From a bacterium (GTDB lineage: Bacteria; 4484-113; JAGGVC01), in the NCBI GenBank assembly GCA_039961635.1, contig JABRWB010000032.1, positions 1 through 64,000 of the forward strand: DNA of 64,000 nt, in the 5' to 3' direction. Both the position numbers and the translations under genes were made by a program. The notes beneath the pieces were generated by a model. The model did not search any database. It saw nothing but the letters and a program-made list of their open reading frames with translations, and was not told the origin of the DNA. Below, in pieces: positions 1,209-47,384 of the stretch. Every line of letters starts with the position of its first letter. Positions within the stretch are counted from its first letter, which is position 1.

Positions 1209-1937
1209 TTACAATTCAAGATACTGCCGTTCAAATTCCGTCCGCTCGAACGCGATCGGGGCAACCGACTCTTCCGCAGCGGGCGGGGATTGGGGAGCCG
1301 GTTTCGATTCATCTTCCATGGTCAGACCCAGAACCAGCAGAAACCAAAAGAAACCGGCGATCATATTGACGATGACGGTGAACACGAGGAAGCCTATCGC
1401 GCCGGGACGCCGGGCTTTGAGCCAGTTGACGCTGAAAAAAATGCCCGCGACGGGAATCAAAAGCGTCAGGCATCCAGCTCCGAATGCCTCTCCCGCTCCG
1501 ACGGGCCTGCCGGCTGCAGGCTGCGTGAATTGCGTTGCAGGCCTGGCGGCGGGCGCGGCGTCCATCCTTGATTCGTGGATTGCGACGCCCGCATCGGATG
1601 CCGAATACGTCTGCGCATCTTCGATGCCAAGCGTTGCGATCAATTCCGCCTTTATGTCCGCGGGATTTCGTTCCGAAAGCCGTCCGGTGCCTTCGAACCG
1701 CGTTTCGGCGTTGTCAATTTCCGGCGGCTCCGGCCACTCCAGCGGTTTGAATCCGGGCAGCTCATTTTGGGAATCGGCTTTTTCGGATTCCGGCGCGGTT
1801 GAAGCAACCGATGCCGAGGCCGCAAGGTCGTGGGACTGCGGCCGTTCGTAGGGAGAAACGAGCTTTGCCCCGCAATTCTGGCAGAAGTTGGCATCCCCCG
1901 AATTGGATGCGCCGCAGGCGCTGCAATGAAGTGGCAT
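1209..1937 (-). CDS. Zinc-ribbon membrane protein
   Basis: This 242-residue protein begins MPLHCSACGASNSGDANFC, nearly the same zinc ribbon as the gene at 1-1184, so the two are tandem duplicates that diverged after residue 25. A long low-complexity acidic linker follows, then two membrane helices at roughly residues 150-200 and a short acidic tail. It lacks the pilin-like repeats of its neighbour. The ATG at 1937 was chosen because AGGTGA lies six bases upstream and because it matches the paralogue's start; a GTG three codons earlier is also open. The function is unknown. Confidence 0.75.
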   Translation of the reverse strand: MPLHCSACGASNSGDANFCQNCGAKLVSPYERPQSHDLAASASVASTAPESEKADSQNELPGFKPLEWPEPPEIDNAETRFEGTGRLSERNPADIKAELIATLGIEDAQTYSASDAGVAIHESRMDAAPAARPATQFTQPAAGRPVGAGEAFGAGCLTLLIPVAGIFFSVNWLKARRPGAIGFLVFTVIVNMIAGFFWFLLVLGLTMEDESKPAPQSPPAAEESVAPIAFERTEFERQYLEL

Positions 1938-7047: not shown

Positions 7048-7239
7048 ATCGGAGGGATATCCGGCCGGGCGGTTGGGGCCGCCCGACATCACGCGCCGCA
7101 AGGCTCGTTTCAAGGGGAATTGGCGTTGTCGCCCGTGCAGGTGGAGTGCGGGCAGGCGGGCCGGGATTTGTTTCGGAAGCCGCGGCGTTATGCTGCGGCT
7201 TTTGGGGCGCCGGGCCGCGTTGAAATGCGGTGATTCTCG

Positions 7240-8019
7240 TTGAATTTGCTCGATCTGACGGCGGTGCAGTTTCAGGCTTTTCTGCTCTATTTTCTGCGCG
7301 GGGCGGGCTTCCTGTTCGTCGCGCCGGTAGTTTCCGCGCGCAGCGTGCCGTCTCAGTTCAAGGTGGCGCTGGCTGGCGGGCTTGCCCTGATGTTTCTGGC
7401 TCTCAATCAGCCGGCGCTTCCGGCGAGGCCGTATGAAACGGCGGTGTGGGCGCCGATGGCGGTGGGGGAGCTGATTATCGGGCTTGCGGTCGGTTTTCTG
7501 GTCGGATTGATTTACGTTGTTTTCGAGTTCGCCGGGCGGATATTCGGATTCCAGATGGGATTCGGAATCGTCAACGTGCTCGATCCGCAAAGCCAGGAGG
7601 AAGTCAGTCTTACGGGGGAGTTTCTGTTCACGATTGTTTCGCTCGCGATTCTCAATCTCAATTTGCATCATGCTTTTCTTCTGTATTGGGGCAGGTCGTT
7701 CGAACTCGTTCCCGCGGGCGGCATAGACGCCGCGGGATTCTCGATCGAAGCGTTCGGCGGGATGCTCACGACGCTGTTCGTGGTCGCGCTTCAAATCGCC
7801 GCCCCGCTTCTGGCGATTCTGTTCATGCTCGATTTCGGGCTGGGGATTATCGCGCGCGTCGTCCCGCAAATAAACGTTTTTCTCGTGGGGATTCCGCTCA
7901 AGATCGCCGGCGGGCTTTTCGTGATGGCGATGGTCGTCGGGTTGCTGAATCCGGTCGTATGGCGCGTGGTGGATAAGTTTCTTACCGACGCGATGTCGGT
8001 TGTGACTTCATTCGGGTAA
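7240..8019 (+). CDS. fliR: Flagellar export gate protein FliR
   Basis: FliR is part of the FliPQR core of the flagellar type III export gate in the inner membrane. The 259-residue protein is highly hydrophobic with about six helices and shows the family pattern: an FLRGAGFLFVAPV start, GELIIGLAVGFLVGLIYVVFEFAGRIFGFQMGFGIVNVLDP in the middle and IPLKIAGGLFVMA near the end. The start is TTG 7240. It is the first gene of the operon; flhB follows after 41 bases. fliP and fliQ, which often precede fliR, are not present in the window. Confidence 0.93.
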   Translation: MNLLDLTAVQFQAFLLYFLRGAGFLFVAPVVSARSVPSQFKVALAGGLALMFLALNQPALPARPYETAVWAPMAVGELIIGLAVGFLVGLIYVVFEFAGRIFGFQMGFGIVNVLDPQSQEEVSLTGEFLFTIVSLAILNLNLHHAFLLYWGRSFELVPAGGIDAAGFSIEAFGGMLTTLFVVALQIAAPLLAILFMLDFGLGIIARVVPQINVFLVGIPLKIAGGLFVMAMVVGLLNPVVWRVVDKFLTDAMSVVTSFG

Positions 8020-34675: not shown

Positions 34676-35691
34676 GCGACAAGTATTATTCGAGCGAAGA
34701 AGTGTTGAGAAGGATGCAGGCGCAGGTGCGCCGCGCGTCCAAAAAAATGTCCGAAATCAAGATAGCGATCCTTTCGGGCGGACCCAGCCCGGAGCGGGAG
34801 GTTTCGCTGGCCAGCGGCAACGCGGTCTACAACGCGCTCAAGCAGGACGGCATGAACGTGGAGCTTGTCGAGGTCGAAAAGGATATCCTTTCGATGACCC
34901 GCAAGCGGTGGGATCGTTTCGGTCTTGTCTTCAATGTCATGCACGGACGCTACGGCGAGGACGGCGCGGTGCAGGGCTTGCTGGACATTTACGGTGTGCC
35001 GTATGTCGGCTCCAAAATCCTGGGCAGCGCGGCATGCATAGACAAGTCGTTTTCCAAGCTGCTGTTCACCCTGCTTTCCATTCCCACGGCAAAGTGGACT
35101 TACGTACCTCACCTTGAGGCCGTGCGCCCTGACCTGGTTGTGGAGAACTGGAGCGGACCGTCCGTCGTGAAACCGATAAAAAGCGGCTCCAGTCTAGGAA
35201 TCACATTTTGCAAAGACGTCAGCGAGCTTTTGCGCCAGCTTCCCGGCTTGGTGAAAAAGCACAAGGGCGTCGTAGTCGAAGAGCCGATCGAAGGCCGGGA
35301 GATGAGTTGCGCTGTGATTGACAGCGTCAATCCAATCGCGCTTCCGGTTGTCGAGATAATCCCGCAAAACCAGGAATTCTTTTCCTACAAGGCGAAGTAC
35401 ACGAAAGGCGAAACCGAATACCAATCGCCGGCCCGCATCACCGGCGGGCAGTTCGAAAAGATCGCCGAGTATTCGCTAAGGTTTTTCCGCGCCGCGAAGC
35501 TATCGGGTTACGCAAGGTTCGACCTGATTCTTGATGACGCGGGCAAACCCATTTTTCTGGAATGCAACACGCTGCCCGGATTCACGCAAACGAGCCTTGT
35601 GCCGATGGCGGCCAAGGCTTTCGGACTCGAGTACACCGAGCTTCTTAAATTCCTGATTTTCGACGCGCTGAGGATTGAGCATTACCTTTGA
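34672..35691 (+). CDS. ddl: D-alanine--D-alanine ligase
   Basis: Ddl joins two D-alanines with ATP to supply MurF. The 339-residue protein has an N-terminal extension of about 30 residues before EIKIAILSGGPSPEREVSLASG, then HGRYGEDGAVQGLLDIYGVPYVGS, an ATP-grasp domain (VVKPIKSGSSLGI, EEPIEGREMSCAV) and the metal/ATP site FLECNTLPGFTQTSLVP. GTG 34672 overlaps the murC stop as GTGA, with GGGAG upstream. Confidence 0.94.
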   Translation: MSDKYYSSEEVLRRMQAQVRRASKKMSEIKIAILSGGPSPEREVSLASGNAVYNALKQDGMNVELVEVEKDILSMTRKRWDRFGLVFNVMHGRYGEDGAVQGLLDIYGVPYVGSKILGSAACIDKSFSKLLFTLLSIPTAKWTYVPHLEAVRPDLVVENWSGPSVVKPIKSGSSLGITFCKDVSELLRQLPGLVKKHKGVVVEEPIEGREMSCAVIDSVNPIALPVVEIIPQNQEFFSYKAKYTKGETEYQSPARITGGQFEKIAEYSLRFFRAAKLSGYARFDLILDDAGKPIFLECNTLPGFTQTSLVPMAAKAFGLEYTELLKFLIFDALRIEHYL

Positions 35692-36533
35692 AATCTAAAA
35701 GCAGAAAGCGGAAGCATGGAATTCCTCCCTCCGGGAGGCTGTTCATGCGCGCGGCGGGTATAGCCGCGGCGACGCTGGCGCTTCTCGCCGTTACCGGAGC
35801 CGCGGCCTTCGCGTTCGTCAAGCCGCGACTTGCGGATTCCGTGCTTCTTAAGCAAATAGTGGTAAGCGGAAACGTAATCACTCCAAGCTCCGAAATCGTC
35901 CGGGCTTTGGGCATGCATCCCGGCGAATCCCTGATAGACTTGGATTTGAAATCGCTTGAACGAAAAGTCGAAAAGTGCAGATTTGTTTCATCTGCCGAAG
36001 TACGCCGGGTGGTCAAGCCGCCTTTCGATATTATGGGCGGAATTCTGGAAGTCCGGGTGCTTTCCGAATCGCTGCCCGTCGCGCGAGCGTTCCTTTTCGG
36101 GCGGAAGTACTGGCTCACGAGCGAAGGCCGGCTGATTCCCGCGTCTCCATCGGATGCCGATTCGCGATTCGATTCCGCAAGACGTTCCCCCAGCGTCTAT
36201 TTCCATTCGACCAGGCAAGTGGAATCGCCGGAATTCGTGCAAAGCACATTGGCCGTTCTTTCCGCGATTTCCAAAACGGCGCCCGGACTAATCCGCGAAG
36301 TGAGGATTTCCGGCGGCGATGTTGTCACGCTTGTTGAGACCGGCGGGACGGCAATCCGCCTCGAAACGATGGACAAGCCGGAAGCGTCGCTCGCGAATCT
36401 GGCGGACGTGGTCAGGCTGATTTCCGCAAACCGCTTGAAATATCGGGAAGCCGTTCTTTCTCCCGACGGAGAATCGTTTTTCCAGCTTGCGCCCAAAATC
36501 GAAAGCGATTCCGAAAAGGCGGGTGAACGATGA
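35688..36533 (+). CDS. ftsQ: Cell division protein FtsQ/DivIB
   Basis: This 281-residue single-pass protein has a basic cytosolic start, one membrane helix (about 21-45) and a POTRA-type domain (LLKQIVVSGNVITPSSEIVRALGMHPGESLIDLDLKSLERKVEKCRFVSSAEVRR), then the FtsQ beta domain. It forms the FtsQ-FtsL bridge in the divisome. The TTG start overlaps the ddl stop as TTGA. It ends four bases into the DUF881 gene. Confidence 0.88.
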   Translation: MKSKSRKRKHGIPPSGRLFMRAAGIAAATLALLAVTGAAAFAFVKPRLADSVLLKQIVVSGNVITPSSEIVRALGMHPGESLIDLDLKSLERKVEKCRFVSSAEVRRVVKPPFDIMGGILEVRVLSESLPVARAFLFGRKYWLTSEGRLIPASPSDADSRFDSARRSPSVYFHSTRQVESPEFVQSTLAVLSAISKTAPGLIREVRISGGDVVTLVETGGTAIRLETMDKPEASLANLADVVRLISANRLKYREAVLSPDGESFFQLAPKIESDSEKAGER

Positions 36534-37291
36534 AAGACGCCCACGCGATGCTGAAAAATGGACTGCTGCTCACCGGGGCGCTGTTCGGCTTTCTGATAGT
36601 GCTTCTTTTCCGGGTGTCAAAGCCCGCCGCCGGTTCGTCCGGCGACCTGCGGCAGGAGGAGCTGGTGCGAATGCTTGCGGCCGCCGAAAACGAACGCAAG
36701 CTGTTGCAGGCCGAAGTGGACAACCTGCGGGGCGAGGTGGACGCGTACCAGCAGGACGCGCTGTCGGGCAAGTCTTCTTTGAGGAATATCGAGGAAAAGC
36801 TGGCCCAAATCGAGACGCTGGCCGGATTGTCGGCGGTTCACGGGCCGGGCATCGAAGTGAAAATGACGGACGCGAACCGCGGGGCGATAGACATCGGGCC
36901 GGGCTCGCTTGGCTCGGACGCCTTTGTAATCCACGACCAGGATTTGATGCTGCTTATCAACGAGCTGAAGGCCGCCGGAGCGGAAGCCCTCAGCATCAAA
37001 AGCGGCGAATTGGAAGAGAGGATTGTGAACTCCACGTTTATCCGCTGTACCGGCCCCACGGTGATTGTCAACAACCGCAAAATGACAAGCCCGTTCACGA
37101 TCAGGGCAATCGGGGATCCGAACATACTTGCTGCGTCGCTTGAAATGCCCGACGGGCTTGTGGATCAGCTCCGCGTTTTCGGCATTCGCGTTGAAATCAC
37201 GCGGTCTCAAAATCTGACGATTCCCGCGTATACCGGAAGCAGGATTCTGACATACGCGCAGCCGGAAACCGGTTCGAGGAGCGGCAAATGA
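36530..37291 (+). CDS. DUF881 family protein
   Basis: The 253-residue protein has one N-terminal membrane helix (about 9-28), a coiled coil (about 40-100, ENERKLLQAEVDNLRGEVDAYQQ) and a DUF881 domain (GPGIEVKMTD, HDQDLMLLINELKAAGAEALSIKSG, RCTGPTVIVNNRKMTSPFTIRAIGDP, LEMPDGLVDQLRVFGIRVEI). DUF881 proteins usually lie beside ftsQ and the DUF1290 gene in Gram-positive-type clusters; their role in division is not settled. Confidence 0.88.
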   Translation: MKDAHAMLKNGLLLTGALFGFLIVLLFRVSKPAAGSSGDLRQEELVRMLAAAENERKLLQAEVDNLRGEVDAYQQDALSGKSSLRNIEEKLAQIETLAGLSAVHGPGIEVKMTDANRGAIDIGPGSLGSDAFVIHDQDLMLLINELKAAGAEALSIKSGELEERIVNSTFIRCTGPTVIVNNRKMTSPFTIRAIGDPNILAASLEMPDGLVDQLRVFGIRVEITRSQNLTIPAYTGSRILTYAQPETGSRSGK

Positions 37292-37671
37292 TTCTCGTCG
37301 GAGCGATAGTGTTTGGCGCGTTGATCGGACTCGTAGTGCCGGTTAGAATAGAGCATGCCAATTTGGATTGGCTCGTCGTGGGAATCTTTTGCGTCGGCGA
37401 CGCTTTCTTGTCCGAACTTAACATATTCCTGCACAAGAGGCGCGGCACCCACGTTTTAACGCGGATTATGTTCAACGCGCTGTTCGGAGCGGCGATCCTG
37501 TTAATCGGCGAGCGCCTGGGGTACGATTTGTATCTCGTTGTAATCATTCCGTTCGCAATCCGGACGCTGAACAATCTGAACCATCTCAAGGATCTGCTTT
37601 CCGAATCCATTGCCGAGGGCGACATCACGATATTCCGCGATCGGCGCGCGTCGGTGAGGGAAAGGAACTGA
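37288..37671 (+). CDS. sbp: Small basic membrane protein Sbp (DUF1290)
   Basis: This 127-residue protein has three membrane helices and the DUF1290 pattern: GALIGLVVPVRI, DAFLSELNIFL, FNALFGAAILLIGERLGYDLYLVVIIPFAIRTLNNL. In Bacillus the orthologous sbp also sits before ftsA. The start overlaps the DUF881 stop (ATGA). Function unknown; a division-linked membrane role is inferred from context. Confidence 0.85.
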   Translation: MILVGAIVFGALIGLVVPVRIEHANLDWLVVGIFCVGDAFLSELNIFLHKRRGTHVLTRIMFNALFGAAILLIGERLGYDLYLVVIIPFAIRTLNNLNHLKDLLSESIAEGDITIFRDRRASVRERN

Positions 37672-37676
37672 TTTCG

Positions 37677-38945
37677 ATGACGAGAAAGCGCACAGTGGCG
37701 GCGATCGATCTTGGAACTTCCAAGACCGCCACGGCCATCGCGGAAATCGGCGACGTGCGCGGCTTGTATATCGAAAGTATGTCCAGCGTTCCTACCGAAG
37801 GCATGGTCAAAGGCGTCGTCCGCGACCTGAATGCGGTAGGAATGAGCATATATCAGTCATTCTCCCAGGCGGCCCATACGGTTGGCGACGTGCCGGAAGA
37901 AGTTTACCTGTCGGTCAGCGGCGGTTCGATGGAAAGCTACGATTTCAGCACCACAAAGACGCTTGCCGGAGACAACGAAGAAGTTACCGAAGAAACCGTT
38001 GAGGAATTGCGGGACAAGCTGCGTGAGACAAAGGTGCGCGACGGATTCAGGCTGATTGACGTCGTGCCGCAGAATTACACGCTGGACGGCATTGAGAACA
38101 TTTTGAATCCGGTCGGTATGTTCGGCAAAAACCTCACCCTGAACGCCCACATCGTGATCGGCCCGGAAAGTCAAGTTCTGAACTTGGAACGGGCGGTCGA
38201 ACGCACCGGACTGAAAATCTGCGGACTGGTACCGGCGGTACTCGGCAGCGCCTACTCGGTGATGAAGGAAGAGGAAAGCCGGGGCGGAGTGCTTATAGTG
38301 GATTTCGGTGCGGGCACCACCGATCTTGCCGTGCTTGTGGACGGATTGCTCCGGTATATTTCAATACTTCCTGTCGGAGGAAACCACTTCGACAACGACT
38401 TAAGACAGGGTCTTGGAATTTCCATCGAAGAAGCGTCCAGGCTGAAACTTAATTACGGCCGCATCCGAATCGATCCCGACAACGGGGCGACCGGCGAATT
38501 TGTGGATATTAAAAGGCTGGGCAAGCGCGATTACGAAAAAATACCGAAGCAGGAAATATACCGGATTCTCGAACCCAGATTCGAAGAGCTGATCGAGCTT
38601 ATTTGGCAGAATGTCAAGAGCAGCGGGTTCAAGGACGACATCGCGGGCGGGGCTATCCTCGTCGGCGGCGGCGCCCTGTCCCGCGGATTCAGAGCGGCGC
38701 TGTCAATGCGCATCGGCGTCAACGTGCGAGTGGGTTATCCGGAAGGCTTTAATCATTTGCTGGAAGAATACAGGACTCCGTCCTACACGGCGGTCCTGGG
38801 AATGCTTAGATACGCTTCAATGCAGCCCGTCCATGAAGCCGAAGGCCCCGGATTGCTCGGATACCTCAGGGCGGGCTGGGATTTTATCCAGCGCCAGATC
38901 GCGGCGAAAACCGCGAAGGGCGCCAAAACCGAGGCAAAGAAATGA
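37677..38945 (+). CDS. ftsA: Cell division protein FtsA
   Basis: FtsA is the actin-like protein that anchors FtsZ to the membrane. The 422-residue protein has the ATPase phosphate-1 loop ([19 protein letters not shown]), the SHS2/1C domain ([19 protein letters not shown]), phosphate-2 ([18 protein letters not shown]) and the adenosine motif ([13 protein letters not shown]). The C-terminus ends in an amphipathic helix ([17 protein letters not shown]) as expected for membrane targeting. Confidence 0.95.
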
Positions 38946-38998
38946 ACAGCCAACCCCGCGGGCAAGCCGGCGGCGGCCCGTACCTTAAGGAGACTGGA

Positions 38999-40129
38999 AT
39001 GAGCGATCTTTTTGACAGCGATCTTCAAGCGCGGATTAAAGTCGTAGGGGTCGGCGGAGGAGGTACGAACGCCGTCGATCGCATGATATCAAGCGGTTTG
39101 CGCGGCGTGGAGTTCATCGCGCTTAACACCGATTTTCAAGCGCTTTCGCGCAGCCTTGCGCCAATCAAAATCCAGGTGGGGACAAAGCTCACCAAAGGAT
39201 TGGGTGCGGGTGGCAATCCGGAGATCGGCCGAAAAGCGATGGAGGAAAGCCGTCCCGACGTGCTCGAAAAGCTGGAAGGCGCGGACATGGTGTTCGTCAC
39301 TGCGGGAATGGGCGGCGGCACCGGAACCGGCGGAGCGCCGCTCGTGGCCGAGGCCGCAAAGGAGCTTGGAGCGCTGACCGTAGGCATCGTGACCAGGCCG
39401 TTCAGGTTCGAAGGTAAACGCAGGGCGTCCGTGGCACAGGAAGGTGCAGATACCCTCCGGGACCGCGTCGACACGCTCATCGTCATTCCGAACGACAAGC
39501 TGCTCGATCTGGTCAAGGAACAAACGAGCCTCCAGGAAAGCTTTCTTTTGGCGGACGAGGTGTTGAGGCAGGCGGTCACCGGAATCAGCGAGCTGATTTT
39601 GAAGCCGGGCCTGATTAACCTTGATTTCGCAGACGTCAAGATGATTATGAGCAACAGCGGCACGGCGCTAATCGGACTCGGTGAAGGTTCAGGAGGCGAG
39701 AAGGCCGTTATGGCGGTTCAGCAGGCGATGTCCTCGCCGCTTCTCGAATCCAGCATTGACGGCGCGTCCGGTGTATTGATCAATTTCATCGGCGGGCCGG
39801 ATCTCGGCCTCCACGAGGTGGACAAGGCCGCCGAGATGGTAGCGGAGCGCGTCGACGTGGACGCGAACATCATTTTCGGCGCGACGGTGGAAGAGGAAAT
39901 GAAAGACCGCGTGCACGTGCTGCTTCTCGCCACAGGTTTTTCGACCGCCAGGGTGCGCGACGTCCGCGCAAAGCGCCCCGCGGCCGAGCAGCAATCCCGT
40001 GTAAGGCTGCTGGCCGACGAGGAAAAGAAGCGTGAGCAGGCCGCGAAGGAAGAGCAGGCAAGGCAGTCCGATCCGGAACTGGAAAATTTGGATATACCGA
40101 GCTTCCTTAGGAGGATTCGGAAGAACTGA
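38999..40129 (+). CDS. ftsZ: Cell division protein FtsZ
   Basis: FtsZ is the tubulin-like GTPase that forms the division ring. The 376-residue protein has [16 protein letters not shown], the GTP signature GGGTGTG (105-111), NDKLL and the T7 loop NLDFADVK. The C-terminal tail ends [13 protein letters not shown], the conserved peptide that binds FtsA and SepF. ATG 38999 is chosen for its AAGGAG site; a 19-codon extension to 38942 is open but low in family similarity. Confidence 0.97.
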
Positions 40130-40851
40130 TGGCGTCCGTAATCGCCAGCGGGGATCGCGTTATCGCCGACAATTTCGCGCGCGTGCGCGAGCGAATCGAA
40201 CGCGCGGCGCACGGCCGGGATGTGACTCTGGTCTGCGTTACGAAGTACGTCGGCGAGCGGGAAGCCGCGGCGCTGGTCCGCGCCGGCGCGACCGATCTGG
40301 GCGAAAACCGCGTTTTCGAAGGGGCGGAGAAGTTCGCGGCAATCAAGCGGGAGGGGCTTGCGTTTACTTCGCACATGATCGGCCCGGTTCAAAGCAACAA
40401 GGCAAAGCGCATTCCATACGCGTTCGACTGGTGCCAATCGCTCTCGCGCGAAAAAATTGCCCGGCTCATTCAGGAGGCCTGCAAGGAGCACGAAACTTCG
40501 CTGGACGCGACAATCGAGGTCAACATCGGTCGCGAGGAGCAAAAGGACGGAGTTATGCCGGAAAGTTTGGGCTCGCTCGTGAAATTCGTTTTGTACGAAT
40601 GTCCGCTTGTCCGGCTTCGCGGGCTGATGTGCATCCCTCCTTTGGCAACCGAGGATGCGACGAGGGATTACTTCGCTCAAACGAGGAATTTGTTCGACAA
40701 AATCGGCGCGGAATTCCGGAGTTCGTTGCCGGCGTGGGACACGTTGAGCATGGGAATGAGCGCGGATTTCGAGGCCGCAATCGAGGAAGGCTCGACAATG
40801 GTTAGAATCGGAAGCGAGCTTTACCGCGGGCTTCAAGGATTCATGCATTAG
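40129..40851 (+). CDS. yggS: Pyridoxal-phosphate homeostasis protein (YggS/PLPBP)
   Basis: PLPBP binds pyridoxal phosphate and balances vitamin B6 and amino acid pools; no catalytic reaction is known. The 240-residue protein shows VCVTKYVG with the PLP lysine at 39, DLGENRVFE, HMIGPVQSNKAK and the phosphate-binding LSMGMSADFEAAIEEGSTMVRIGS. Its ATG shares a base with the ftsZ stop. Location between ftsZ and sepF is common in Firmicutes, Actinobacteria and Cyanobacteria. Confidence 0.93.
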   Translation: MASVIASGDRVIADNFARVRERIERAAHGRDVTLVCVTKYVGEREAAALVRAGATDLGENRVFEGAEKFAAIKREGLAFTSHMIGPVQSNKAKRIPYAFDWCQSLSREKIARLIQEACKEHETSLDATIEVNIGREEQKDGVMPESLGSLVKFVLYECPLVRLRGLMCIPPLATEDATRDYFAQTRNLFDKIGAEFRSSLPAWDTLSMGMSADFEAAIEEGSTMVRIGSELYRGLQGFMH

Positions 40852-40907
40852 CAAGGAGAGTTGAAGGGGTTCAAGAGTCGCCGCCAAGACTTTTGGAGGT
40901 TATTGCG

Positions 40908-41336
40908 ATGAAAGGTTTTTTGGACAATCTCTCGAAGTTTATCGGGATTCCTCCCGAGCCCGAGATCGCGGACGACTTCGAGTCGGAGCCGGTGGAGCAG
41001 GCCGCGCACCATCATTTCGAACCGTCGGCGGAGCGGTTTCCGCGTCTGGCCGCGATTCAGGTAGTCAAGCCGCGGATGACCGAGGACGGCTTCAGGGGTT
41101 ATTCAATCCGGCACTATGCTGACCTTCTCAAAGAGCAAAACGCGTTGATTTTGGATATAACGGAAGTTGCGGAAGGCAGGATAGAGCTGGCCAAAAGGCT
41201 GATAGACTTCCTGGCGGGCGTGACGCTTGCGCTCGGCGGCACAAGCCGCGAGATCAATCCCAACATGTTTCTTTTCGCGCCGTCGAATTTCCTGGTTGGC
41301 GGGGATGCGGTCCGCATGTCCGACGATTACGAGTAG
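40908..41336 (+). CDS. sepF: Cell division protein SepF
   Basis: SepF binds FtsZ and membranes and can replace FtsA. The 142-residue protein has a short N-terminal amphipathic helix (MKGFLDNLSKFIG), a linker and the SepF core domain (YADLLKEQNALILDITEVAEGRIELAKRLIDFLAGVTLALGG, INPNMFLFAPSNF). A strong GGAGGT site precedes ATG 40908, so the extension to 40893 is rejected. Having both FtsA and SepF is typical of many Terrabacteria. Confidence 0.92.
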   Translation: MKGFLDNLSKFIGIPPEPEIADDFESEPVEQAAHHHFEPSAERFPRLAAIQVVKPRMTEDGFRGYSIRHYADLLKEQNALILDITEVAEGRIELAKRLIDFLAGVTLALGGTSREINPNMFLFAPSNFLVGGDAVRMSDDYE

Positions 41337-41345
41337 GCTTTGACC

Positions 41346-43046
41346 ATGACGGAATCCGAAAGCTTTCTTTTGACATTGCTGGGCGGTGTCGGCGAAATCG
41401 GCAAGAACTGCGTCTCCCTGGAAGTGGACGACGATTTGTTCATCATTGACTGCGGCCTGTCTTTTCCCGACGTGTCTGCATTCGGCGTCGACATCATCAT
41501 CCCGGATTTCACATACCTGTACAAGAACCAGCATCGCATCAAGGGGCTGTTCCTGACTCACGGGCACGAGGATCATATCGGCGCGATTCCTTATCTTATT
41601 GAAGGACTCGATGAGCCGCTTCCGATTTACGGGACCAAACTTACGCTGGGCCTCGTAAAGAACAAGATTTCCGAGTGGAATCAATTGGATAAGGTCGAAT
41701 ACAGGGAGCTTGTGCCCGGCGAGACCGTATCGGCAAACGGAACAAGCGTCACCGGTTACCGGGTGACGCACAGCATTCCGGATGCGGTGAGCCTCGCCTT
41801 CCGCACGCCGTACGGCACGCTTTTGCACAGCGGCGATTTCAAAATCGACCCCTCTCCCGTGGACGGGCGCTTAACCGACAAAGACGGCCTTGCCGAGCTG
41901 GGCAGGGAGGGCGTGTCGCTTTTGATGTGCGATATCACTAACGTCGAGAGGCTCGGCAGGACGATCAGCGAGTCCGCCGTCGGCCCTTCGCTTGAGGCTG
42001 TATTCAAGTCCGCGGGCGGCCGCGTTTTTACAACCACATTCGCCAGCAACATCCACCGAATCCAGCAAATTATCAACGCGGCGCACCACTTGGGCCGCAA
42101 GGTCGCGATAGTCGGCAGGAGCATGATTAAAAACGTCGCTATGGCGCAGGAAATCGGCTATCTGAAAGTGCCGTCAGGCACGATTATCGATATAGACGAT
42201 ATCAGAAATTATCAGCCGGAACAGATAGTAATCATCGTGACCGGAAGCCAGGGCGAGCCGATGGCCGCGCTCACCCAGATTTCGCAGGACAGGCACGCGC
42301 GCGTTGCAATCGAGAAGGGCGATATGGTCATTTTCAGCGCCAGTCCGATTCCGGGAAACGAAACAGCAATATACGGCGTTATAAACGATCTCTTCCGGCT
42401 CGGCGCGGATGTGATTTACGGCCCGGAATACGGCGTGCATGCGAGCGGCCACGGCAGCGAAGAGGATATTAAAGAGTACATTGGTCTGGTCCAGCCGACC
42501 TATATCCTTCCGCACCATGGCCAGTACCGCCACCTTCGCAAGTTCGTATCGCTGGCCGGCACGATGGGTTTCGACGAGGATCGGATTATTCTTTCGGAAT
42601 TGGGCGACCAGTGGGAATTTTCGCAGTCCGGTTTCAAACTTGCGGGCAAGACAAGAAGCGGCGTAGTTTACATTTCTGGAGACAACTCGGCCGAAGTGGC
42701 GAGCCGCACGATCCAGGAACGGCGCGAGCTTGCCCGGGACGGCACGATTTACATCTCGGTCGTGCTTTCTGCGGACGGGAAACGGCGTCTCAGCGACGTA
42801 ATAGTGGAGCACAAGGGCTTCATACCTGAATCGAAAGATCCCGCTATTTACGAAAAGATACGTGAGGCCGTTTTGTTGGGAATAGCCAACAACAGACTGA
42901 GAAGCCGCGAGTATCGTCTGCAACTTCAAAACAACGTGGGGCAATCAGTACAAGCCGTCGTTCAGGCCGCGTCCGGATTGCGTCCGAACGTGCAGATGCT
43001 TGTAAACTACGCGGATCGGGACGAAAAAATAAACGGAAAGCCGTAG
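41346..43046 (+). CDS. rnj: Ribonuclease J
   Basis: RNase J is a metallo-beta-lactamase-fold nuclease with 5'-3' exo- and endonuclease activity for mRNA decay and rRNA processing. The 566-residue protein has the zinc motif HGHEDH at 72-77, LHSGDFKID, CDITNVERLGRTISE, the beta-CASP domain (FTTTFASNIHRIQQII, GSQGEP) and PVHASGHGSEED-type GVHASGHGS followed by LPHHGQYRHL. It follows sepF by nine bases; the pairing with division genes is probably historical. Confidence 0.95.
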   Translation: MTESESFLLTLLGGVGEIGKNCVSLEVDDDLFIIDCGLSFPDVSAFGVDIIIPDFTYLYKNQHRIKGLFLTHGHEDHIGAIPYLIEGLDEPLPIYGTKLTLGLVKNKISEWNQLDKVEYRELVPGETVSANGTSVTGYRVTHSIPDAVSLAFRTPYGTLLHSGDFKIDPSPVDGRLTDKDGLAELGREGVSLLMCDITNVERLGRTISESAVGPSLEAVFKSAGGRVFTTTFASNIHRIQQIINAAHHLGRKVAIVGRSMIKNVAMAQEIGYLKVPSGTIIDIDDIRNYQPEQIVIIVTGSQGEPMAALTQISQDRHARVAIEKGDMVIFSASPIPGNETAIYGVINDLFRLGADVIYGPEYGVHASGHGSEEDIKEYIGLVQPTYILPHHGQYRHLRKFVSLAGTMGFDEDRIILSELGDQWEFSQSGFKLAGKTRSGVVYISGDNSAEVASRTIQERRELARDGTIYISVVLSADGKRRLSDVIVEHKGFIPESKDPAIYEKIREAVLLGIANNRLRSREYRLQLQNNVGQSVQAVVQAASGLRPNVQMLVNYADRDEKINGKP

Positions 43047-43058
43047 CGCCATTCCTTG

Positions 43059-43883
43059 ATGAACGAAATTCTTACTTACATCCTGCTCGGCCTTGTTCAG
43101 GGTTTGACCGAGTTTCTTCCGGTTAGCTCCAGCGGACATTTGATAATTGCGGAAAAGCTGTTGGGTTACTCCGCGACATCTGTATCATACGAAGTGCTGC
43201 TGCACCTCGCAACCCTCGCCGCGGTTTTTTGGGTGTTCTGGAAGGATATCGCGAAGGTATTTGTCAGCTTGTTCCGTCAAAGGGATAAATCGAATGCCTT
43301 CGTTCGTGACAGAGGGCTTGCGCTTTGGATACTCGTGGGTTCGACGGCGACCGCCGCCGCGGCGTTGCCCTTCAAGGATTACCTTGAACGTCTGAAGGGG
43401 CAACCCTGGCTCCTCGCCGAAGTCGGCTTCGCGCTGCTTTTGACCGGCATTCTGCTTATCACGGTGGACAAATTGGGACGCGGCCAGTCGGCGTCTTTCG
43501 ACAAATGCTGGTGGAAAAGCATTTTAATCGGACTCGCCCAGGCCGTCGCCGTTCTGCCGGGCATATCCAGAAGCGGCTCGACCATCTTCGCGTCCGTAGC
43601 GTCCGGTTTGAAACGGGAGGATGCGGCAAAGTTCAGCTTTCTACTTTCCATCCCGGCGATCCTCGGCGCGGCCGCGATCGATGCAAAAAACATAACTGGA
43701 TTGCTGGACTTGTCGCCGGTTCCGACATTGCTTGGGATGCTTGCCGCCTTTCTCTCCGGTGTGGCGTCGATAAAATGGCTGATCGGACTGATCGTCCGCG
43801 CCAGATTGGCCGGTTTCGCTGTTTACTGCTGGATTCTTGGAGCCGGCACACTTGCAGCATACTTTATCGGACTGGGCTCCTGA
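43059..43883 (+). CDS. uppP: Undecaprenyl-diphosphatase UppP (BacA)
   Basis: UppP dephosphorylates undecaprenyl pyrophosphate to renew the lipid carrier for peptidoglycan and polysaccharide synthesis. The 274-residue membrane protein has the two signature regions GLVQGLTEFLPVSSSGHL (residues about 9-26) and AVLPGISRSGSTIFASVASGLKREDAAKFSFLLSIPAILGA. It follows RNase J by 12 bases without an obvious ribosome site and fits the wall theme of the cluster. Confidence 0.95.
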   Translation: MNEILTYILLGLVQGLTEFLPVSSSGHLIIAEKLLGYSATSVSYEVLLHLATLAAVFWVFWKDIAKVFVSLFRQRDKSNAFVRDRGLALWILVGSTATAAAALPFKDYLERLKGQPWLLAEVGFALLLTGILLITVDKLGRGQSASFDKCWWKSILIGLAQAVAVLPGISRSGSTIFASVASGLKREDAAKFSFLLSIPAILGAAAIDAKNITGLLDLSPVPTLLGMLAAFLSGVASIKWLIGLIVRARLAGFAVYCWILGAGTLAAYFIGLGS

Positions 43884-43988
43884 CAGCGTAAATCGCGCAA
43901 TTAACTTCGCATTTGTAAAGTAAAATGACCCCATTTTGGTCATCCTGCCCGGCTTCAAATGTTAAAAGTTGTAAAAAGTTATGTAGAG

Positions 43989-44018
43989 TTGCGAAATAGC
44001 GCGAACAAATGTTAAAAT
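43989..44018 (+). promoter_or_regulatory. Putative promoter of the sugar transferase leader
   Basis: TTGCGA (43989-43994) and TAAAAT (44013-44018) are 18 bases apart. Transcription would begin about 265 bases before the coding start at 44290. Confidence 0.5.
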
Positions 44019-44045
44019 CTGTGGTCTGTTGTTGTGGCTGACGGA

Positions 44046-44114
44046 GCGGCGAATCCGGAATCGCCGCAGCCCTCAGGGCGGTGGTACTGGACGGATGGCC
44101 AGAACCCATCGGGT
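44046..44114 (+). repeat. Copy A of a hairpin-associated motif (CAGGGCGGTGGTACTGG)
   Basis: Order: hairpin GCGGCGA/TCGCCGC with CCGGA in its loop (44046-44067), a short GCCC-TCA-GGGC hairpin, then GGTGGTACTGG (44080-44090), then hairpin ACCC-ATC-GGGT (44104-44114). The same order occurs at 45716-45775 with different stem bases, which is the pattern expected for a conserved RNA structure. Confidence 0.5.
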
Positions 44115-44289
44115 GTGCGACCGGCCTCCAAATCCTGGAACCGGCGGCTCCATCGGTCGAAATGGAGCTTCCGGCGGGCGTTCCTTAGGCCAGAATGTTT
44201 CCCCAACGTGTCCCGGCATTCCCCGCCGGGACGCGCATTTTGAGGGTCTTGTCTTTGCCGGGCGAGGACGCTTTGATAGAATTCGAAAG

Positions 44290-45696
44290 GTGAATACAAA
44301 AACCGAATACGCCCGCCCGCGCGCTCCGGAATCGCTGCCGATCTCGTGGCTGCATTTGCTCGGCGAAGCGGTAATTTTGTGCGCCGCTTTCGCTCTGGCC
44401 CATTATTTCAGATTTCAGAGCGGCTACCTGCCTCCGGCGGTCGAGTTTATTCCGATTGAAAAATATTTGATCCTGATGGCGGTTACCGTGCCGCTTTGGC
44501 TGATACTTCATCTCGGACACGGCCTTTATTTCCAAAAAATCGGCGCATCTTCAGGCGAAGAAATTTCCGCCCTGGTCAACGCCCAGATGCAGGGCTTTCT
44601 TCTGCTTGTTCTCGCAAGCTTTTTCATCCGCGACTTTCCCGAAAGCCGGCTTACGCTTTTGCTCATATTCGCCTTTTCGTTTCTCCTTTGCCTTGGCTGG
44701 AGGATTGCGCTTCGTTTTTTTCGCACCGGCAATCTGTTGCGAGGCATCGGCGCGATTCCGGTGATAGTGCTCGGCGAGAGTCCTTTGGGGGAGTTGCTGG
44801 TAAAACGAATCGCGAAAAGCCCGCAGGTCGGATATTCAATAAGAGAACGTCTTTCCCTGGACGCGATTGCCAAGGGCATTGAAGCGCCTGTGTTGAGACA
44901 CGTTTTCGGGGAGACCGGCTCGCCCGCAGCGCTTTTGATTGCGGGAGAAGTGCCCGAAGATGCGCTCGGAACGATAATAGCCGAATGTCACCGGACGGGA
45001 GTAGAGTGCATCCTGCCTCTCGAACGCACGGGCGCGGCCGGCGTGCCGTCGTCCGCGTCCATGCTGGAAGGCGTACCTGTTGTACGGCTTGCGTCGCCCG
45101 GTGAGCTTGCCTGGATTCGGCTTAAAAAGCGGATTTTCGATCTTTTGCTTGTAATCCTGTTTCTTCCGATCTGGCTGCCGCTGTTGATTTTGATTTCGCT
45201 TGCGTCGCTCGCGGCGCAAGGCGCGCCGGTATTCTTCAGCCATGAGCGGCTGGGCAGGGGGGATTCGACCATCCGTTTGCTTAAGTTCAGGACAATGGTG
45301 CGCGATGCATCCAAAATGAGCATTCCAGCCGGATTCGAGGATAAGTTCAAATCGGAGGCGGATCCGCGCATCACGCGGTTCGGCGCGTTCCTGCGCAGAA
45401 CCAGCCTGGACGAACTTCCGCAAATCATCAACATCCTGCGAGGAGATATCAGCATCGTCGGCCCGCGTCCGATAGTTCGCGATGAGCTGTCGAAGTACGG
45501 TTATTGGGCTGGTTTGCTTCGTTCGGTGCCGCCCGGACTAACCGGGCTGTGGCAAGTGAGCGGCCGCAGCGATCTGTCTTACGACCAGCGCGTGGAGCTG
45601 GATACCTATTACATTCACAACTGGTCGTTGGCGCTGGATATCAGAATTATTTTGCAAACGCTGCCGGCGGTTCTTTCGCGGAAAGGCGCGTATTGA
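44290..45696 (+). CDS. Polyprenyl-phosphate sugar-1-phosphate transferase (exopolysaccharide initiation)
   Basis: Enzymes of this family start exopolysaccharide or O-glycan synthesis by putting a sugar phosphate on undecaprenyl phosphate. The 468-residue protein has four N-terminal helices, a CoA-binding-like middle domain and, after a fifth helix, the catalytic domain: RLGRGDSTIRLLKFRTMVRDA, EADPRITRFGAFLRRTSLDELPQIINILRGDISIVGPRP and PGLTGLWQVSGRSDLSYDQRVELDTYYIHNWSL. The sugar is unknown. GTG 44290 is the likely start; the frame stays open upstream through the hairpin-rich leader. No other polysaccharide genes are adjacent, though uppP is just upstream. Confidence 0.9.
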   Translation: MNTKTEYARPRAPESLPISWLHLLGEAVILCAAFALAHYFRFQSGYLPPAVEFIPIEKYLILMAVTVPLWLILHLGHGLYFQKIGASSGEEISALVNAQMQGFLLLVLASFFIRDFPESRLTLLLIFAFSFLLCLGWRIALRFFRTGNLLRGIGAIPVIVLGESPLGELLVKRIAKSPQVGYSIRERLSLDAIAKGIEAPVLRHVFGETGSPAALLIAGEVPEDALGTIIAECHRTGVECILPLERTGAAGVPSSASMLEGVPVVRLASPGELAWIRLKKRIFDLLLVILFLPIWLPLLILISLASLAAQGAPVFFSHERLGRGDSTIRLLKFRTMVRDASKMSIPAGFEDKFKSEADPRITRFGAFLRRTSLDELPQIINILRGDISIVGPRPIVRDELSKYGYWAGLLRSVPPGLTGLWQVSGRSDLSYDQRVELDTYYIHNWSLALDIRIILQTLPAVLSRKGAY

Positions 45697-45707
45697 TCCA
45701 TGACCAT

Positions 45708-45738
45708 AAAAAAAAGGGTCCTCCCGGATTGAGGACCC
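45708..45738 (-). terminator. Intrinsic terminator of the minus-strand larA operon
   Basis: Read on the minus strand, an eight-base-pair stem (GGGTCCTC/GAGGACCC, loop of seven) is followed by eight T. It lies 207 bases beyond the larA stop and just past the end of the convergent sugar transferase gene. Confidence 0.85.
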
Positions 45739-45775
45739 CCAGGGGGTGGTACTGGTTTGTGTGGGATATTCCCAC
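45716..45775 (+). repeat. Copy B of the hairpin-associated motif (CAGGGGGTGGTACTGG)
   Basis: The hairpin at 45716-45738 has CCGGA in its loop, followed by CCCC-CAG-GGGG, then GTGGTACTGG (45746-45755) and hairpin GTGGGA-TAT-TCCCAC (45761-45775). The linear core is 16 bases, one shorter than copy A. The first hairpin doubles as the minus-strand terminator. Confidence 0.5.
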
Positions 45776-45944
45776 GTGCAAATTATGCCGCCGTCAAATC
45801 GGTCATGCAATACGTTTTACGAGCCGAAACAACGTTTAACAACTTTTTACAAATGGAAATTGGTCGCCTTGACAGCCGTAATATGCGCGGGCTCGATCAA
45901 AAGCTGGATATGCGCAAAATCCCGAAGGAACAACGATTTGACGA
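45739..45944 (-). other. Untranslated stretch between the larA stop and its terminator
   Basis: No gene is supported. A 63-codon frame on the plus strand (TTG 45757 to TAG) has no ribosome site and no recognisable domain. AACTTTTTACAA at 45841-45852 is the inverse of TTGTAAAAAGTT at 43969-43980 on the other side of the sugar transferase gene. Confidence 0.4.
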
Positions 45945-47384
45945 TTAGCCGCCGAATATCTTACGGGCAAGTTCGCTCGTATTCGAGTCGCCGTCGTCAA
46001 TCTCAATTTCGTCCGGTTCCTCGGCCGACTTGTCGAATTCGTCGTAATACTTGGTCATTTCCTTTGCGGTGATTCCGACGCGGTCGCTCGGCCGTATCGG
46101 CGTGGCGAGAGAAGCATATGGCATAATCGTGATGGGAGGGAAGGGAGGTCTGACCTTGGAGAAAATCATGCCCATCGCCTGTCCGGCGGTTTTTGCCGGA
46201 ATCAGGCCGAGCGATCGGACTTCCTCGTCGGGCAGGGAGCTGACCAAATAAATTTTGTGCTTTTCAGCGCGCGTTCGAAGCGATAGAATCAAATGCCCAA
46301 GCGGGGAATACTTGTTTTGCAGGCGCAGCCTGACGGTGTCCGCCGTTTTGAATTCCTTCCAGTCTTCGAATACAGGATGTCCCAATCCTTCCCTGCACTC
46401 GGCGAGCAGCACCAGTTGTCCGCCGTCGGGATTCAGCAGATTGGTTCCGTTCACCAACGATTTATGGGTCTGATAAAAGTTGATGTCGCGCGGGTATCCG
46501 CCTGCGCTCGCGATTGCAATATCGGCGTATGGATTCTCCCTGCCGCCGACCACTATTCCGTAAAAGTCCTCGACGAACTGGCAGCCGACGCGGTGCGCGT
46601 AGCTGAAATCGCCCGCAAAAACCCCCGCGATTCCTCCGGAGGGCGTAAGAACCACATCCATTAGAAAGTCCGGACGCAGCTCCCCCGCCGCGTCGAGCAT
46701 ATCCTCGTGCACCGGGTTGCCCAGCAGACTGCCCGGCCGCACGCGGTCATGGAAGAATCCCGTTTCGGGATCGATACAGAGGGAGTGATTCTGGATGATG
46801 CTTTCGCGCGCGGCGACGCCGGGAAAGAGAGCTTTTCTGCCGCCTGTGAATCCCGCGAAATAATGGTAGGTGATCGATCCGGTCAGTATGATGAAATCAG
46901 CTTCGAACGCGACGGGATTGTAATAAATTATCGTGCCGCGCGTTGTTTTGCCGCAACGCTTCATCTTGCCGGAATCGCTTCCGTCATGCTGGACTATTTT
47001 GTACTTTTTAACTATTTCCGTTCCAAGATGAGCAGCCAATTCGGCATCGGTCATGAAGCGGTGCGTGCCGGTTGCGACCAAAATCGTGATCGCCTGCGCG
47101 GGAATCTTCGCCACCCTCGTCAGCTCGTCGAATAGAACCGGCAGAGTTGCATCGTATCTGCACTTGCGCGTGTGATCGGAAACGATGACAACCAAATTTT
47201 TCTTCCCGCGGGCCGCCTCCATAAGCGGAGCGGCTCCGATGGGATTTCTAAGAGCGCGGCGTAGCGCGTTCTCAACGTTGTCCAGCGGCGGGCATGCGCG
47301 CGGGGCGAACTCGCGGCATTCTATTCCGATCGGAACGGAAATCGTTTCTTCCCTGTCCCCGTATTTCAGTTTGTAGTCAGGCAT
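45945..47384 (-). CDS. larA: LarA-family nickel-pincer racemase/epimerase
   Basis: LarA-type enzymes use a nickel pincer nucleotide bound to a lysine to racemise or epimerise 2-hydroxyacids by hydride transfer. The 479-residue protein has H108 (ATGTHRF), H174 (ITYHYFAGFTGGRKALFPG), K184 in GGRKALFPG and H200 (IIQNHSL); these positions match those I recall for the lactate racemase of Lactiplantibacillus plantarum. The substrate may not be lactate: LarA homologues are diverse and no larB, larC or larE cofactor gene is in the window. Last gene of the operon before the terminator at 45708. Confidence 0.87.
   Translation of the reverse strand: MPDYKLKYGDREETISVPIGIECREFAPRACPPLDNVENALRRALRNPIGAAPLMEAARGKKNLVVIVSDHTRKCRYDATLPVLFDELTRVAKIPAQAITILVATGTHRFMTDAELAAHLGTEIVKKYKIVQHDGSDSGKMKRCGKTTRGTIIYYNPVAFEADFIILTGSITYHYFAGFTGGRKALFPGVAARESIIQNHSLCIDPETGFFHDRVRPGSLLGNPVHEDMLDAAGELRPDFLMDVVLTPSGGIAGVFAGDFSYAHRVGCQFVEDFYGIVVGGRENPYADIAIASAGGYPRDINFYQTHKSLVNGTNLLNPDGGQLVLLAECREGLGHPVFEDWKEFKTADTVRLRLQNKYSPLGHLILSLRTRAEKHKIYLVSSLPDEEVRSLGLIPAKTAGQAMGMIFSKVRPPFPPITIMPYASLATPIRPSDRVGITAKEMTKYYDEFDKSAEEPDEIEIDDGDSNTSELARKIFGG

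Follow-up and report, generated by a model that had tools for sequence, protein, structure and literature searches.

Gene order and conservation of the locus

The locus described here comprises a sugar transferase gene, the long leader that precedes it (leader A), the intergenic region that follows it (region B) and a larA-like gene convergent with the transferase (Table 1). It lies in a 64-kb stretch of DNA, referred to below as the window, which is part of contig C32 of a 2.78-Mb metagenome-assembled genome (G000). The class was compared across ten genomes, among which only that of bacterium isolate AUK090 (G001) belongs to the same family; the two assemblies are 91–96% complete. In the window, 248 nt separate the transferase stop from the end of the larA-like gene. 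The AUK090 transferase orthologue is 60% identical to the window protein, and the order of leader A, transferase, region B and convergent larA is retained, in keeping with the proposal of the first-pass annotation that an RNA-level conserved feature is tied to a polysaccharide gene. The gene upstream of leader A encodes UppP in the window and is a divergent peptidase-like gene in AUK090. Positions 35688-43883 of the window hold division and cell-wall genes (FtsQ-, FtsA- and FtsZ-like, YggS-like, RNase J and UppP), ending directly 5' of leader A.

The position beside a polysaccharide gene, kept in AUK090, does not extend further in the class: transferase homologues are present in the other eight genomes, with neither the A nor the B motif beside them. 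A covariance-model search of the kind that the first-pass annotation had suggested, run with models of A and B over 144 genomes, recovered the homologues in AUK090 in addition to the window genome itself and none beyond these, apart from weak B-model matches elsewhere that look like unrelated terminators or chance. A scan of IMG/VR for the antisense segment of region B gave 0 matches.

Table 1. Features of the transferase locus, with positions in the window
Feature	Position	Strand	Remarks
Promoter-like repeat TGTTAAAAGTTGTAAAA, upstream of leader A	43960..43976	+	Pattern TGTNAAAANNTGTNAAA
Promoter-like site of leader A, -35 TTGCGA and extended -10 TGTTAAAAT	43989..44018	+	Region ATGTTANAAT with upstream CGCGAAC conserved in G001
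Leader RNA A (putative length)	44025..44245	+	Homologous to L008 7145-7385 of G001
Predicted pairing site in leader A, GCCCTCAGGGCGGTGGTACTGG	44069..44090	+	Complementary to minus-strand B RNA
Possible hairpin P2, GGUACUGG-ACGGAUGG-CCAGAACC	44083..44106	+	G001 equivalent GAUACCGG-AUUUGGAUGGC-CCGGUAUC
GC-rich hairpin then TTTT, between leader A and start codon	44210..44243	+	From folding; possible attenuator or 3' end of A
Sugar transferase	44290..45696	+	GTG start; Pfam PF02397 (Bac_transf), E=9e-61; undecaprenyl-phosphate sugar phosphotransferase type
Predicted small RNA, about 68 nt (5' hairpin, single-stranded segment, terminator)	45708..45775	-	Block 45708-45792 conserved in G001
Intrinsic terminator, 10-bp stem then T8	45714..45740	-	Both stem and T8 also in G001
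Antisense segment of small RNA, CCAGUACCACCCCCUGGGGGU	45735..45755	-	Predicted; complementarity to leader A
Candidate small RNA promoter, TTGCAT-17-CATAAT	45782..45810	-	Putative; directly upstream of compact start
Promoter-like repeat TGTAAAAAGTTGTTAAA, upstream of B	45835..45851	-	Same repeat as upstream of leader A
larA-like gene (lactate racemase family)	45945..47384	-	Pfam PF09861, E=3e-59; G001 orthologue L008:9505-10944

The leader of the transferase gene

Copy A of the motif discussed below had been placed within a long leader behind a promoter-like site ending near 44025, and both the leader and the site proved to be conserved in AUK090. The site precedes the transferase start codon by 265 nt. 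Alignment of leader A with its AUK090 homologue gave a local score of 48.5, compared with 19.0±3.3 for shuffled sequences, none of 300 shuffles being as good. Leader A was rejected as a coding region because its indels in the two-genome comparison have lengths that three does not divide; GAGGTACTGGAACG at about L008:7527, just 5' of the AUK090 transferase, was set aside as a chance likeness, the true homologue lying at 7145-7385.

Within the leader, the case for hairpin P2 is suggestive only: its AUK090 equivalent carries two double changes and one repaired mismatch, and in the window the fold lies 4.1 kcal/mol above the minimum free energy. Covariation over the whole element gives weak support, as 14 of 300 shuffles attained the consensus-fold energy. 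Between leader A and the start codon stands a GC-rich hairpin with TTTT behind it, and AUK090 has a comparable hairpin and TTTT at L008 7564-7598; neither passed a terminator scan. Attenuation control of the transferase through this leader is possible but unproven. The leader of the AUK090 transferase is about twice the length of that in the window; between leader A and the transferase, at L008:7500-7600, it holds two more GC hairpins as well as a hairpin that resembles a terminator and has TTTT.

Likeness of the two motif copies

Copy A (CAGGGCGGTGGTACTGG, 44074-44090) and copy B (CAGGGGGTGGTACTGG, 45740-45755) had been described as two copies of one plus-strand hairpin motif bracketing the transferase gene, with stems kept while their bases differ. 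Both sequences are present in these places, as are the hairpins around them: GCGGCGA-ATCCGGAA-TCGCCGC at 44046-44067, GGGTCCTC-CCGGATT-GAGGACCC just 5' of copy B, and, read on the plus strand, GTGGGA-TAT-TCCCAC 3' of copy B. Although hairpins thus flank both copies, the flanking stems of A and B differ and are not equivalent. The CCGGA hairpin of A is not kept in AUK090, the corresponding loop of B there reads CCGCAC, and the stem of B is an invariant terminator of the minus strand, so the picture of preserved stems with changing bases could not be upheld. Since the A hairpin is unconserved, the stems are non-equivalent and copy B belongs to a minus-strand unit, the likeness is best explained by two transcripts that are complementary to each other.

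Taken by itself, the motif pair does not exceed chance: a genome-wide pattern search allowing 2 mismatches found 2 matches (A and B only), compared with 3 for the reversed control, and the alignment of the A leader with the B intergenic region of the window scored 16.0 against 15.4±2.5 for shuffles, 125 of 300 shuffles being as good. No further plus-strand copies were found in the genome. Across the 64-kb window, A and B are the sole repeat pair of the form 11 plus indel plus 5 within 2 kb. In each genome, CAGGGGGTGRTAC or its one-indel form occurs in A and B only, with one other near match, 1 mismatch off, in AUK090. It is the comparison with this relative that raises the likeness above chance.

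A predicted minus-strand small RNA in region B

A DNA search with region B matched AUK090 over 45708-45792 only (79% identity, E=8e-10), between the orthologous transferase and the orthologous convergent larA. Conservation is confined to the terminator, the antisense segment and a 5' hairpin, and region B looks like a unit encoding a small RNA (sRNA) on the minus strand. The hairpin 5' of copy B is preceded by A8 on the plus strand, which on the minus strand corresponds to a 10-bp stem followed by T8. Upstream of this stem, the minus strand reads CAGTACCACCCCCTGGGGGTCCTC in the window and CTGTATCACCCCCTGAGGGTCCTC in AUK090. The predicted 5' hairpin is GUGGGA-AUA-UCCCAC in the window and GGG-AAAU-CCC in AUK090. 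Folding of the compact transcript (45775-45708) suggests that the core of the antisense segment would be accessible, with opening costs of 1.9 kcal/mol in the window and 0.1 in AUK090. At the place aligned with the candidate sRNA promoter, AUK090 has TTGAAA-17-TAAATT. In both genomes, the end of larA lies about 200 nt upstream of region B on that strand; the terminator could simply serve the larA mRNA, and it is possible that the B RNA is processed from the larA 3' UTR.

Leader A and region B also share an upstream repeat, in each case oriented with the presumed transcript. Its pattern, TGTNAAAANNTGTNAAA, occurs 4 times in G000, 2 of these being the A (plus) and B (minus) copies, and 2 times in G001, whereas the reversed control gave 0. 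The likeness between the A and B repeats is held in both genomes (score 24; shuffles 11.0±1.7). The repeat is possibly a lineage-specific promoter or regulator site. Elsewhere in G000, it occurs at C43:26179-26195 (minus strand), upstream of the gene for a repeat-rich surface- or phage-like protein, and at C22:36815-36831 (minus strand), in a stretch without an obvious downstream gene; in G001, it occurs at C24:22339-22355 (plus strand), upstream of a small gene with a signal-peptide-like start. An invertible phase-switch segment was considered for these facing repeats across a gene and rejected as unlikely, because the repeats differ from each other in both genomes and recur upstream of other genes.

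Complementarity between leader A and region B in two genomes

Since the conserved transcription signals of region B lie on the minus strand, the B RNA would be the complement of leader A. The same-strand motif shared by A and B is GGTGGTACTGG in the window and CAGGGGGTGATAC in AUK090, where it extends to CTCAGGGGGTGATAC. In RNA terms, the predicted duplex spans 21 bp and a single bulge in the window and 19 contiguous bp in AUK090, with energies, opening costs not yet included, of -42.5 and -36.7 kcal/mol; the AUK090 duplex is built on a perfect 15-mer match, CUCAGGGGGUGAUAC, that wobbles extend to 19 bp. The seed complementarity to the leader is thus kept at 15-21 bp in both species. After opening costs, the net energy of the compact sRNA with leader A is -12.1 in the window and -14.4 in AUK090, and within 19 kb of the AUK090 locus the best non-self complement of the sRNA is leader A.

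The two copies have also changed in parallel: where both read GGTGGTAC in the window, both read GGTGATAC in AUK090. With two genomes only, this amounts to a single double-sided change, and one such coincidence is not rare given the several changes that each copy carries. Same-genome duplexes are predicted to be stronger (-43.2 and -38.8) than cross-genome ones (-35.2 and -34.9). The significance of the match was assessed by scoring the A-B alignment on one path with both genomes together, the null being shuffled A columns that keep the conservation pattern. The same-strand score was 27.5, compared with 11.4±1.7 for shuffles and a maximum of 18.5 in 400; with real aligned coding blocks as the null, the maximum was 14.25 in 36. 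In the window alone, contiguous complementarity of this extent was matched by 10 of 556 blocks and is not exceptional.

Proposed mechanism and alternative readings

The sequence itself shows that the terminator and the leader are conserved, that the complementarity of A and B is kept and includes a change matched on both sides, and that A and B share an upstream element. The reading that these features favor, with a probability of roughly 0.6, is that an antisense sRNA transcribed from region B pairs with leader A of the undecaprenyl-phosphate sugar transferase and controls the transferase independently of Hfq. Searches for Hfq (PF17209) were negative in both genomes and positive in control genomes, and an Hfq-dependent sRNA was rejected for want of a detectable Hfq in either. 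In the proposed sequence of events, the minus strand of B would be transcribed into an sRNA of about 65-70 nt ending at the intrinsic terminator, and its single-stranded middle, 5'-CCAGUACCACCCCCUG..., would meet and pair with 5'-GCCCUCAGGGCGGUGGUACUGG of leader A. The pairing would cover the 5' strand of the A fold (the closing stem and possibly P2) and might act either by refolding the leader together with the GC hairpin downstream or by making the duplex a target for RNase. Formation of the full 21-bp helix would require invasion of the terminator stem. The outcome would be an altered amount of the initiating glycosyltransferase, for which repression is only a guess. Direct ribosome blocking is unlikely because about 200 nt separate the pairing site from the start codon downstream.

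Such a pair would be a concrete candidate for an sRNA and its target in a poorly known, uncultured bacterial class, at a gene that initiates polysaccharide assembly, found from sequence alone, with support from the change that a relative shows on both sides. The case further illustrates that two "motif copies" on one strand can prove to be antisense partners when it is established which strand is transcribed. A bolder and doubtful extension would have the structured leader and the convergent sRNA, with their shared promoter element, act as a two-part RNA switch flanking the initiating glycosyltransferase: the sRNA could pair not only with the leader but also, and then perfectly, with the 3' end that read-through would give this mRNA, could bridge the two ends of the mRNA, and could so set the initiation of capsule or exopolysaccharide in this uncultured lineage without Hfq.

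Among the alternatives, the one that fares best, though still rather unlikely, is that leader A is a non-coding RNA in its own right, with its end at the GC hairpin, the B RNA being its antagonist or sponge and the transferase a mere neighbor. In both genomes A has its own conserved promoter-like site followed by a GC hairpin with TTTT, and in AUK090 A ends at least about 370 nt before the transferase start; against this, both hairpins fail in the terminator scan, and A stays with the transferase although the gene upstream differs.

It is less probable still that A and B are same-sense sites for one RNA- or DNA-binding protein, located in the 5' and 3' UTRs of the transferase mRNA or in the DNA, and that their parallel change follows the specificity of this protein. 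The same-sense likeness is what the data directly show, a CsrA-type protein is encoded in both genomes, and GGAUGG stands in a possible hairpin loop of A, although CsrA acting there is only an idea. However, the signals conserved in B, a stem of 10 bp with U8 and a box resembling a -10, belong to the minus strand, B in the plus sense is explained by neither a terminator nor a promoter on the plus strand, GGA loops are not kept in B of AUK090, and the genome has no other sites with the motif.

Similarly improbable is the view that B does no more than provide larA with its terminator and 3' UTR, and that it resembles A by chance or as the relic of an ancient local duplication. The proximity of the larA end on the same strand and the chance-level likeness in the window alone fit this view; the two-genome match, in contrast, is far above both shuffles and the real-sequence null, it is better in AUK090 than in the window and so not decayed, and a duplication gives no shared promoter-like repeat oriented opposite to the motif.

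Finally, an ops/JUMPstart element (acting through RfaH or a further NusG paralogue), or some other leader element already described, is very improbable, and membership is refuted by the searches made: the first-pass annotation had noted a partial likeness, and a GGCGGT core in a leader element upstream of a polysaccharide gene is indeed common to both, but here the ops consensus is absent from both genomes, the sequence in AUK090 is GGGGGTGATACC, the Rfam model does not match, and each genome has a single NusG match and no RfaH-like paralogue.

Relation to known RNA elements

The absence of a described family, as the first-pass annotation had supposed, was borne out by Rfam searches of the window and the 19-kb AUK090 locus, in which nothing reached the gathering score and the only matches at E<=10 were suhB and ylbH noise. 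A T-box leader, prompted by GGGTGGTAC, was rejected, with no T-box model match at E<=10, and no tRNA-like element was found.

The predicted sRNA resembles trans-acting antisense sRNAs with intrinsic terminators in its 5' hairpin, its exposed seed, its terminator and U-tail, and a complementarity to the leader kept between species; unlike these, it adjoins its predicted target on the opposite strand, its site lies far upstream of the start codon, and it would act without a detectable Hfq. Feedback sRNAs of the OppZ/CarZ type derive from 3' UTRs, adjoin the gene or operon that they target and end at an intrinsic terminator, whereas the sRNA here lies on the strand opposite to its target and, if processed, would originate from the larA 3' UTR. 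In icaR of Staphylococcus aureus, the 5' and 3' UTRs pair with one another, the two ends of the mRNA being complementary. Here too, the two ends of a gene related to polysaccharide share a short C/G-rich match, but both ends have the same sense, and complementarity arises only with the opposite strand of B. The nearest described case found in searches of the literature is the DonS-type RNAs of Bacteroides polysaccharide utilisation loci, cis-antisense RNAs divergently encoded to susC homologs (PMC7366714), in which a small antisense RNA beside a glycan gene is likewise proposed to act on that gene (PMC7366714). The sRNA predicted here differs in being convergent with a biosynthesis gene, beyond whose 3' end it is encoded, and in its predicted site, a short stretch of leader at a distance of 1.7 kb.

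A separate observation concerns the CsrA-type protein that both genomes encode (L041:3-410, minus strand; L040, about 1300-1752, plus strand). Its chain, about double the normal length, carries two CsrA-like Pfam stretches, the first part retaining LTRRVGE and the second the C-terminal part of the APKHVQILREE type. It may be a single-chain fused CsrA, and a FliW gene adjoins its gene.
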